From Gammaproteobacteria bacterium UBA2955 (GTDB lineage: Bacteria; Pseudomonadota; Gammaproteobacteria; Pseudomonadales; Azotimanducaceae), in NCBI GenBank assembly GCA_002348825.1, contig DEBN01000058.1:1-13590 (forward strand): a DNA stretch of 13,590 nucleotides, read 5' to 3'. Of the stretch, positions 1 through 2,966 are shown one piece after another (the stretch's first letter is position 1; every line of letters starts with the position of its first letter). The notes below the pieces were generated by a model that saw nothing but the letters and a program-made list of their open reading frames with translations, was not told the DNA's origin and searched no databases. A program made the translations under genes and the position numbers.

Positions 1-1464
1 ACCGTCGAATGCCACATCGCGGCGGGGCTACCTCGAACTACAATTGTGGGGCTTGCCGAAGGTGCGGTTAAAGAGTCAAGGGATCGCATAAACAGTGCAC
101 TTAGAACCTGCGGCTTTCACTTTCCCCGCGGGCACGTCATCGTCAATCTTGCGCCGAGTCACCTGACCAAAAGCGGCAGCAGCTACGACCTACCCATCGC
201 ACTGGCCATTCTCTGCGCCAGCGACCAGATCGAAATACGCGAGGCCGCCACTACTGAATTCGTCGGTGAACTGGGCTTATTCGGTGAAATTCGCCGCATC
301 AACGGTCTATTGAGTTGCGCCTTGGCCTGTCAGAAAGCCCACCACGCCCTGTATCTGCCCAAAGCTAACGAGCTTGAAGCGAGCCTTATAAAACAGGGTA
401 AGTTACGAATTGCAGGGCATCTGCTGGAATTATGTGCTCACTTAAATGGTAAGCCGCAATCGGCTGTCCAAGCGCCCAAGAGCGAGCCCGTTGCTCGACA
501 CAGGCAGCGGCAGTCAACTTATGAGCAGATCCTTGGTCAAAGCGCTGCCAAGCGCGCCTCACTTATCGCTGCGGCGGGCAGCCACCATCTGCTCATGGTT
601 GGACCACCCGGTACAGGTAAAGCTTTGCTGGCGAAAGGCTTGGCTGAATTCCTGCCGCCACTTACAGACCAACAAATGCTCGAAGTGGCGGCAGTGTACT
701 CAGCAGCTGGCATATCTAGGCCAGACTACCATGACCCCCCGTTTAGAGAACCTCATCACTCCGCAACCGACGCGGCGCTGCTGGGTGGAGGCCAGACACC
801 TACACCGGGCGAGAGTGCATTGGCGCACCATGGCGTATTGTTTTTAGACGAGCTGCCGCACTTTCGCGCATCTGCTATCGATCTTTTGCGCGAGCCGCTC
901 GAGAGCGGCGTGGCAGTTATTTCTCGGGCCCGCTACAAGGTGCGCTATCCGTGCCGGTTTCAGCTCGTTGCCGCCATGAACCCATGCCCAGCCGGGCGCA
1001 TTTGCTCGGAAACAAGCTGCCGTTGCGCACCCAACCAGGTGCAGCGCTACCAAAGTCGGATCTCTGGCCCACTGCTCGATCGCATCGACTTGCAAGTTAG
1101 AGTGCCGCAACTTAGGCACGAGACCTTAACCAAACTCGAGCGCAGATCCGACACACGTCAGAGCATTAAGTTTTTGCGTCAACGAGTGGAATCAGCGCGA
1201 CTACGCCAACTGGACCGTCAAGGTCACACGAACAGCTGGCTGGACGCCGCGCGACTGCGCTCTGAAATGACTCGAGCAGGCCTGGATGAAAGCTTTTTAA
1301 CGACTATTCTGCAAAAGTTTCAGTTGTCTGCTCGGAGCTATCATAAAGTATGGCGCATCGCTCGAACCATCGCCGATTTGGACGAAAAGGATGCTATCTG
1401 CCAGGCACATGTGGTTGAGGCACTCGGCTTTCGATCCCTGCCGTGGGAGCAAGGCGTTAGGTAA
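1..1464 (+). CDS. yifB: YifB/ComM family Mg-chelatase-like AAA+ ATPase (5' end outside window)
   Basis: ComM-type AAA+ helicase. Members studied in naturally competent bacteria promote branch migration while transforming DNA is integrated. The reading frame is open from base 1 and its first codons encode the conserved region before VGLAEGAVKESRDR, so the gene starts upstream; the GTG at 46 is an internal Val, not the start. About 30 N-terminal residues are missing by comparison with the family. Counting from base 1, the N-terminal ChlI-like domain spans about residues 1-150. Walker A GPPGTGK is at 201-207 and Walker B LFLDE at 280-284. The family's four-cysteine cluster (Cys329, 335, 340, 342) comes just before QVQRYQSRISGPLLDRIDL. 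The gene ends 28 bases before a hairpin terminator. The family is widespread in bacteria not known to be competent, so a role in transformation here is not shown. Family call very secure. Confidence 0.96.
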   Translation, partial: TVECHIAAGLPRTTIVGLAEGAVKESRDRINSALRTCGFHFPRGHVIVNLAPSHLTKSGSSYDLPIALAILCASDQIEIREAATTEFVGELGLFGEIRRINGLLSCALACQKAHHALYLPKANELEASLIKQGKLRIAGHLLELCAHLNGKPQSAVQAPKSEPVARHRQRQSTYEQILGQSAAKRASLIAAAGSHHLLMVGPPGTGKALLAKGLAEFLPPLTDQQMLEVAAVYSAAGISRPDYHDPPFREPHHSATDAALLGGGQTPTPGESALAHHGVLFLDELPHFRASAIDLLREPLESGVAVISRARYKVRYPCRFQLVAAMNPCPAGRICSETSCRCAPNQVQRYQSRISGPLLDRIDLQVRVPQLRHETLTKLERRSDTRQSIKFLRQRVESARLRQLDRQGHTNSWLDAARLRSEMTRAGLDESFLTTILQKFQLSARSYHKVWRIARTIADLDEKDAICQAHVVEALGFRSLPWEQGVR

Positions 1465-2158: not shown

Positions 2159-2241
2159 AATTTCTCCTTTCCATTTCCGCTAATAACAGCTTTTAAGTAA
2201 ACAGACCGAATCCAAGCGATGGTCCGATGTGATCACCGAGA

Positions 2242-2257
2242 TGCAACAACGATGCCA
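2242..2257 (-). promoter_or_regulatory. Sigma-54 (RpoN) promoter for the TorF-family porin gene
   Basis: On the minus strand the sequence reads TGGCATCGTTGTTGCA. The consensus is TGGCAC-R-N4-TTGCW. The -24 element matches 5 of 6 (TGGCAT), the -12 element matches fully (TTGCA), and exactly 10 bases separate the GG and GC pairs, as sigma-54 requires. The predicted start is near 2231, giving a leader of about 73 bases before the ATG at 2158. Two NtrC-like dyads lie upstream. No convincing sigma-70 promoter was found in the same gap. Confidence 0.78.
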
Positions 2258-2320: not shown

Positions 2321-2337
2321 TGCCCCATAGTGGTGCA
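2321..2337. promoter_or_regulatory. NtrC-type binding site, promoter-proximal
   Basis: The 17-base dyad TGCCCCATAGTGGTGCA matches 14 of 17 positions of the enterobacterial NtrC consensus TGCACCAAAATGGTGCA; its arms are TGCCCCA and TGGTGCA, with one mismatch between them. The centre, 2329, lies about 98 bases upstream of the predicted sigma-54 start, a normal position for NtrC enhancer sites. It lies wholly between genes. Confidence 0.7.
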
Positions 2338-2352
2338 GAACGAGCGCTGCCC

Positions 2353-2369
2353 AGCACCAAAACAGAGCA
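2353..2369. promoter_or_regulatory. NtrC-type binding site, promoter-distal
   Basis: AGCACCAAAACAGAGCA matches 13 of 17 positions of the NtrC consensus. The left half GCACCAAAA is perfect and the right half is degenerate. The centre, 2361, is 32 bp from the proximal site, the same spacing as the paired NtrC sites upstream of E. coli glnAp2. It sits just past the stop of the cupredoxin gene, between genes. Confidence 0.6.
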
Positions 2370-2375
2370 GACTTA

Positions 2376-2966
2376 TCAAAGCGCTGAGAGATATTGCTCC
2401 AGGCGTTGGGTGTTCATCGCGAATGAAGCCTTCATGTTTTGCGCAGCCTCCTCAATTTCGCTCATATTTACGGGGTCTCCAACCTGTATGACACCAACCA
2501 TGGCCATAACCACATGGGGATCGCACTGATAGACATAGACCCCCTCTTTATCCAGGGTAACGCTGATATCTTGGCTCAGTTGTCCCGCCCAAGAGTCGGC
2601 GCCGTCAGGAATCATTCCCGCAATAGACGCCGAATTGTGCGCAAGATCGGTGGCTTTGAAATGCACCGTGTCACCGACTGAAACCTTGATCACTGCAGGC
2701 TCAAAAATCATGCTGCCACCCGGGCCTGAGTTGAGCATTTTTACCTCGTGCTCCGAACCCTCGGACAATGACACCTTCTCCATCTGCACAACAACAGGGG
2801 CTGCTGCAACACTGGGTTCGGTTTCCTTACTAAGGGATCTTTTTACAGTACCGAAAGGCTTCAGCCGCTCGCGAATTTCCGCATTGGTGCCCGGGGGTAC
2901 TGCATTAACGGTAAATACAACTAACGCGAGTGCTAATCCCGAGACCGAAAATACAAGACGCCTCAA
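2376..2966 (-). CDS. Secreted pseudoazurin-like blue copper protein (cupredoxin)
   Basis: Predicted periplasmic type-1 copper protein that carries single electrons between redox partners. 196 aa, with a signal peptide ending near Ala22 (TVNA|VPPG). Residues 80-165 resemble pseudoazurin: the GHN-type segment DLAHNS gives His110, followed by a pseudoazurin-like MIPDGA stretch; then the CDPHVVMAM motif gives Cys148, His151 and Met156, so all four copper ligands are present with the usual Cys-His-Met spacing. A helical C-terminal tail (about 167-196) also recalls pseudoazurin. Unusually, about 55 residues lie between signal and cupredoxin domain and contain EIRERLKPFGTV, reminiscent of the segment before the haem domain of c5-type cytochromes. 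The start is TTG: an in-frame TGA lies immediately upstream and AGGAG is 7 bases away. It is separated from the isovaleryl-CoA dehydrogenase gene by 166 bases and probably transcribed from its own promoter. Redox partner unknown; the nearby quinoprotein is a candidate. Confidence 0.9.
   Translation of the reverse strand: MRRLVFSVSGLALALVVFTVNAVPPGTNAEIRERLKPFGTVKRSLSKETEPSVAAAPVVVQMEKVSLSEGSEHEVKMLNSGPGGSMIFEPAVIKVSVGDTVHFKATDLAHNSASIAGMIPDGADSWAGQLSQDISVTLDKEGVYVYQCDPHVVMAMVGVIQVGDPVNMSEIEEAAQNMKASFAMNTQRLEQYLSAL

Follow-up and report, generated by a model that had tools for sequence, protein, structure and literature searches.

On the reverse strand of contig DEBN01000058.1 from Gammaproteobacteria bacterium UBA2955 (13,590 nucleotides, contig C187 of a 2.63-Mb draft genome; this whole stretch is referred to here as the window), a gene for a putative outer-membrane porin of the TorF family is preceded by a 217-bp intergenic region containing two NtrC-type dyads and a sigma-54 promoter (Table 1). 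We take this gap as the control region because the upstream gene, which encodes a pseudoazurin-like cupredoxin, has its stop codon just past the distal dyad. Neither the dyads nor the promoter are likely to serve the cupredoxin gene itself, which is read in the same direction and stops short of the distal dyad. Judging from the sequence, the region very probably acts as an NtrC- and sigma-54-dependent switch that turns the porin on under nitrogen limitation, within the same regulon as amtB-glnK and the glutamine synthetase (GS) gene.

Table 1. Features of the porin locus, in window coordinates.
Feature	Position	Strand	Remarks
Distal NtrC-type dyad TGCTCTGTTTTGGTGCT, centre 2361	2353..2369	-	9/12 consensus positions, 14.7 bits
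Proximal NtrC-type dyad TGCACCACTATGGGGCA, centre 2329	2321..2337	-	11/12 consensus positions, 20.7 bits
Sigma-54 (-24/-12) promoter 16-mer TGGCATCGTTGTTGCA	2242..2257	-	10/11 specified positions, strict GG and GC
TorF family putative porin (TIGR02001, PF09694 Gcw_chp), 205 aa	1541..2158	-	predicted signal peptide and 12-stranded barrel
Likely ribosome-binding site AAGGAG	2164..2169	-	read directly
Pseudoazurin-like cupredoxin gene, upstream of porin	2376..2966	-	stop codon just beyond distal dyad
comM/yifB, open at window start, convergent with porin	1..1464	+	

Compared with the NtrC consensus 17-mer TGCACCATTTTGGTGCA, the distal element matches at 13 positions and the proximal element at 14, which agrees with the counts given in a preliminary description of this DNA. 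The sigma-54 promoter that it placed before the porin was also recovered, with the GG and GC of the -24 and -12 elements 10 bp apart. Since this 16-mer predicts transcription to start at about 2231, the dyad centres are 130 and 98 bp ahead of the predicted start and 32 bp from each other, as had been described; measured from the promoter 16-mer, the dyads are at -112 and -80. The arrangement resembles that of Escherichia coli glnAp2, whose sigma-54 start is preceded at about 100-140 bp by two strong NtrC sites, separated by 32 bp from centre to centre, although glnAp2 drives glutamine synthetase and the UBA2955 region an outer-membrane protein.

A scan with an NtrC position weight matrix (PWM), one of the checks suggested in the preliminary description, ranked the proximal and distal dyads first and second in the window. 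The PWM was trained on 31 dyads located in front of GS genes; the 23 loci searched for them included the GS locus of UBA2955 and no porin locus. It does not depend on the porin, but it does depend on the NtrC consensus, with which the training dyads were picked. Across the window and three further stretches of the same genome, 2 and 8 of 37,824 positions score as high as the proximal and distal dyads, the sites themselves included. In 5,000 dinucleotide shuffles of this 217-bp region, neither the best site nor the pair was ever reached, and the sigma-54 score was reached in 34. Genome-wide, the pattern TGCACCN5GGTGCA with at most one mismatch occurs at nine places among the matches listed, the proximal dyad being one of them, and with at most two mismatches at 142 places versus 44 for the reversed control. 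Exact matches to the sigma-54 pattern TGGCAYN5TTGCW, which include the porin promoter, number 16 versus 5 for the reversed control. Thirteen of these 16 sites were examined (12 loci and the porin's own), and among them dyads of at least 8 bits within 200 bp upstream were found only at the GS gene and the porin.

The regulators are encoded in the same genome. NtrC is encoded on contig C112 (TIGR01818, 696.4 bits; cut-off 558.6), RpoN on C18 (TIGR02395, 496.2 bits; cut-off 277.35), and the genome search found one P-II protein, on C51. Dyads with a sigma-54 promoter are also present upstream of the GS gene and of amtB-glnK on C51. Measured from its promoter 16-mer, the amtB pair (32 bp apart) lies at -110 and -78 and so matches the porin pair within 2 bp; in the six named relatives examined, the amtB pair falls between -109 and -112 and between -77 and -80. 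The two control regions are alike in layout, whereas their sequence similarity is limited to short words: blastn of the two 200-bp regions found at most eight identical bases, on which grounds we rejected a recent copying of the amtB control region.

Further NtrC-type sites and enzymes of nitrogen metabolism were seen in the course of these searches. Two adjacent dyads lie between the GS gene and ntrB on C112 (L046:3869-3902), which suggests autoregulation of ntrBC. A perfect dyad, TGCACCAAAATGGTGCA, is located between mdh and gltB on C134 (L048:6105-6121); no sigma-54 site was found in the mdh/gltB gap by the strict rule, and this dyad may work at a distance or serve for repression. The GS gene beside ntrBC (L046:4007-5017) encodes a protein of 336 residues that scores 72 bits against Gln-synt_C, suggesting the shorter type II enzyme, and matches above 600 bits occur in 22 of 61 family genomes among the matches listed. 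Three relatives (L049, L050 and L054) have two P-II genes near amtB, compared with the single P-II found in UBA2955.

Comparison of porin upstream regions among relatives, another of the checks suggested, showed that the control region is widely retained; absence of the dyads from orthologous regions, which the preliminary description had named as a refutation, is not what was observed. Upstream sequence is available for six near relatives, whose identity to the window over the aligned 360 bp is 47-52% (L049, with only 22 bp upstream, was left out). In all six the -24 element is retained and a dyad occurs at the orthologous place, four have TTGC at -12, and five have two dyads of at least 8 bits exactly 32 bp apart. 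They represent fewer than six independent cases, since L051 and L052 come from one metagenome-assembled genome (MAG) and L052 and L053 are 97% alike upstream. Within the taxonomic family of the window, 30 of the 45 porin places listed were analysed, the UBA2955 locus included. The promoter motif, again by a strict rule, is present in 27 of the 29 other loci and a dyad of at least 8 bits in all 29, that of L030 being at chance level; with the UBA2955 locus, the counts are 28/30 and 30/30, and the best dyad scores above 95% of shuffles in 29/30. At least two dyads together with the promoter are found in 18 of the 30 (for L027 the tally used a higher-scoring site further upstream than the orthologous one, which lowered its count).

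Of the matches across the class, 30 loci and the next 80 by score were analysed. Two of these 110 repeat a gene already counted, which leaves 108 distinct TIGR02001 genes; short upstream sequence took one class locus out of the dyad and promoter tally and two out of the control comparison. A dyad 40-180 bp upstream of a promoter occurs in 27/30 family and 66/108 class porin regions, compared with 5/1120 for other stretches and 11/466 for the regions ahead of other genes. The latter control is a strict one, since in some loci the genes counted include amtB and genes that diverge from the porin. Among the class loci, the spacings of dyad pairs peak at 30-32 bp, or about three helical turns.

The genes around the porin also point to nitrogen. 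In four of the 30 family loci (L007, L019, L022 and L032; 1.5-kb flanks), glnK and amtB directly follow the porin, and amtB and/or glnK lie near it in nine of ten named loci, the tenth (L051) ending too soon. The order in L053 and L055 is porin, comM (reversed), amtB, glnK and thrC. The same order is likely in UBA2955, because contig C51 ends beside amtB, past a small outward-reading open reading frame, and the window opens inside comM; the junction itself falls in a contig gap. Across the class, 63 of the 108 genes adjoin glnK and/or amtB in the fetched flanks (61 adjoin both), and 51 of these 63 have the promoter motif. This common neighbourhood supports a role in nitrogen uptake. Loci of one genus occur both as an operon (L007, L019 and L022) and with comM as the neighbour of the porin (L008-L012). 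The comM-form loci retain the promoter and dyads, which we regard as the strongest evidence for selection on nitrogen control of the porin.

The protein belongs to a family that is common but is listed by Pfam as being of unknown function (TIGR02001, 59.1 bits with a cut-off of 47.15; PF09694, 37.6 bits with a cut-off of 24). PF09694 was the sole Pfam family matched at E ≤ 0.001, and of 274 genomes sampled across the class, 143 were found to contain the porin family. The predicted structure is a 12-stranded barrel with a low-confidence N-terminal helix at residues 2-17, and the chain ends in KSF, with a C-terminal Phe. By strand alternation in the predicted strands, rather than from coordinates, 13 acidic and no basic residues are predicted to face the inside of the barrel, and nine of these 13 positions are acidic in all 54 aligned proteins; an invariant Arg41 in a predicted turn was excluded from the inward count. 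By structure comparison with the predicted model, the closest folds are the 12-stranded sugar-acid porins KdgM and NanC, while Foldseek alone ranked other barrels such as OmpG first. Sequence identity of KdgM and NanC to the UBA2955 porin is 6-10%, no chain of either was found at E ≤ 1 in a profile search of solved structures, and both are known for carrying acidic sugars, whereas the interior of the UBA2955 barrel is predicted to be acidic. Weak matches among solved structures to a PorB (E 0.077) and cystatin M were not accepted as relatives.

Taken as a working model, nitrogen shortage would lead NtrB to phosphorylate NtrC, whose dimers would occupy both dyads from one side of the helix, assemble into oligomers and reach the RNA polymerase-sigma-54 complex at the -24/-12 promoter through a DNA loop. 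ATP hydrolysis would then open the promoter, and the porin would be produced alongside AmtB and GlnK. The nitrogen-control region claimed in the preliminary description is supported by the dyads, the promoter, the encoded NtrC, RpoN and P-II, the amtB layout and the conservation among relatives, from which we infer NtrC binding and porin induction. Its further proposal, uptake of a nitrogen source, gains support from the recurrent glnK and amtB neighbours; as for the compound transported, the barrel may let ammonium, or another nitrogen cation of similarly small size, through the outer membrane to reach AmtB. Because the predicted 12-stranded barrel has conserved inward acidic residues, an outer-membrane ammonium channel is a testable role for this widespread family. 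In its broadest form, that the TIGR02001 barrels of this clade are dedicated outer-membrane channels for ammonium as a small cation, forming with AmtB one NtrC-controlled route that widens the outer membrane at very low ammonium, we offer the idea tentatively, as possible but on balance doubtful. The outer membrane is usually regarded as no barrier to ammonium. If the barrel does feed AmtB as a channel for ammonium or small cations, outer-membrane permeability would become one of the steps that oligotrophic marine bacteria regulate when they scavenge ammonium.

Several observations weigh against NtrC control of the porin or narrow it. The distal dyad is the weaker of the two, at nine of 12 positions. 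Among the near relatives, L054 and L055 have TTGT in place of TTGC at -12, and L050 has one dyad of at least 8 bits rather than two. L030 lacks the promoter and its dyad is equalled by 22 of 200 shuffles, L032 has no promoter by the strict rule, and L058 has neither promoter nor dyad. Many of the family loci are closely related and thus not independent, and the draft genome is 90.8% complete. The glnAp2-like spacing of 32 bp holds in the window and most close relatives and becomes variable beyond them (18, 19, 23, 29, 32, 35 and 41 bp, among others, within the family); a pair 29-33 bp apart is found in 6/30 family and 37/108 class regions, against 4/1120 and 11/466 in the two controls. The promoter motif is present in only 20 of the 45 class genes without glnK or amtB neighbours, so TorF porins are not all under nitrogen control.

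Three other explanations can be set beside nitrogen control of a nitrogen-uptake porin. The dyads and promoter could be chance matches in an ordinary intergenic region, and single dyads of at least 8 bits do arise in 83 of 740 shuffled regions. However, the best site and the pair were never reached in the shuffles described above, and both promoter and dyad recur at nearly every other family locus; with the shuffles, other DNA of the same loci and the comparison across relatives all against it, a chance origin has a negligible probability and we consider it ruled out. A different enhancer-binding protein with an NtrC-like site might instead drive the sigma-54 promoter in response to a signal other than nitrogen. 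Four further matches covering the AAA region of the ntrC model, two on C70 and one each on C13 and C163, indicate that other such activators are encoded, so NtrC is the likely but not the sole candidate. Against this, the same PWM picks out dyads in UBA2955 at the GS gene, ntrBC and amtB, the amtB layout is nearly identical, and the porin often adjoins glnK-amtB, which together make a non-NtrC activator very improbable.

The remaining explanation accepts nitrogen control and differs as to cargo: under nitrogen shortage, the porin might remodel the envelope or import carbon or another nutrient. The sugar-acid porins among its nearest folds and the family's lack of an assigned function in Pfam would suit this idea. 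The recurrent amtB-glnK neighbourhood does not, and neither does a predicted barrel interior whose charged residues are all acidic, which would suit cations rather than the substrates of KdgM and NanC. We view a role other than uptake of a nitrogen compound as less likely than not.

Promoters of this type are classical, and there is a precedent for a porin under NtrC control. In Pseudomonas aeruginosa, NtrC binds the promoter region of the porin gene oprD and raises its expression (PMC13029640), making oprD a case of an outer-membrane porin gene under direct NtrC control. OprD, unlike the UBA2955 porin, is a basic amino acid porin of another family, and the parts of that paper available to us describe no paired-dyad sigma-54 layout. 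In Herbaspirillum seropedicae, the nlmA-glnK-amtB (orf1-glnK-amtB) operon is reported to be NtrC-dependent and strongly raised under nitrogen limitation, with an amtB-lacZ fusion 21-fold higher, and NlmA is described as most probably periplasmic (PMC3023670, 2011). This operon places a membrane protein gene with glnK and amtB under NtrC, whereas the UBA2955 porin has its own promoter, and comM separates porin from amtB-glnK in near relatives. The putative link between NlmA and this porin is one of gene order and NtrC dependence only. A TorF porin has also been described in a gold-nanoparticle shell, as far as the accessible text shows in a context unrelated to nitrogen (PMC13303613). We found no paper on nitrogen control of TorF porins in full-text searches, which are thin in subscription journals. 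What is new here is a testable functional proposal for a porin family listed as being of unknown function.

The closest named relatives of the porin, with 84-90% identity, come from marine gammaproteobacterial MAGs and one genome of the K189A clade. Porin identity and gene order suggest that the window derives from this clade, which NCBI taxonomy places in the OMG group alongside HTCC2089 and the obligately oligotrophic KI89C. In support of the likely ribosome-binding site, AGGAGAAA preceding TATG is common to all seven sequences in the alignment of porin upstream regions. The pseudoazurin-like protein encoded upstream of the porin has an N-terminal extension of about 75 residues ahead of its cupredoxin domain.
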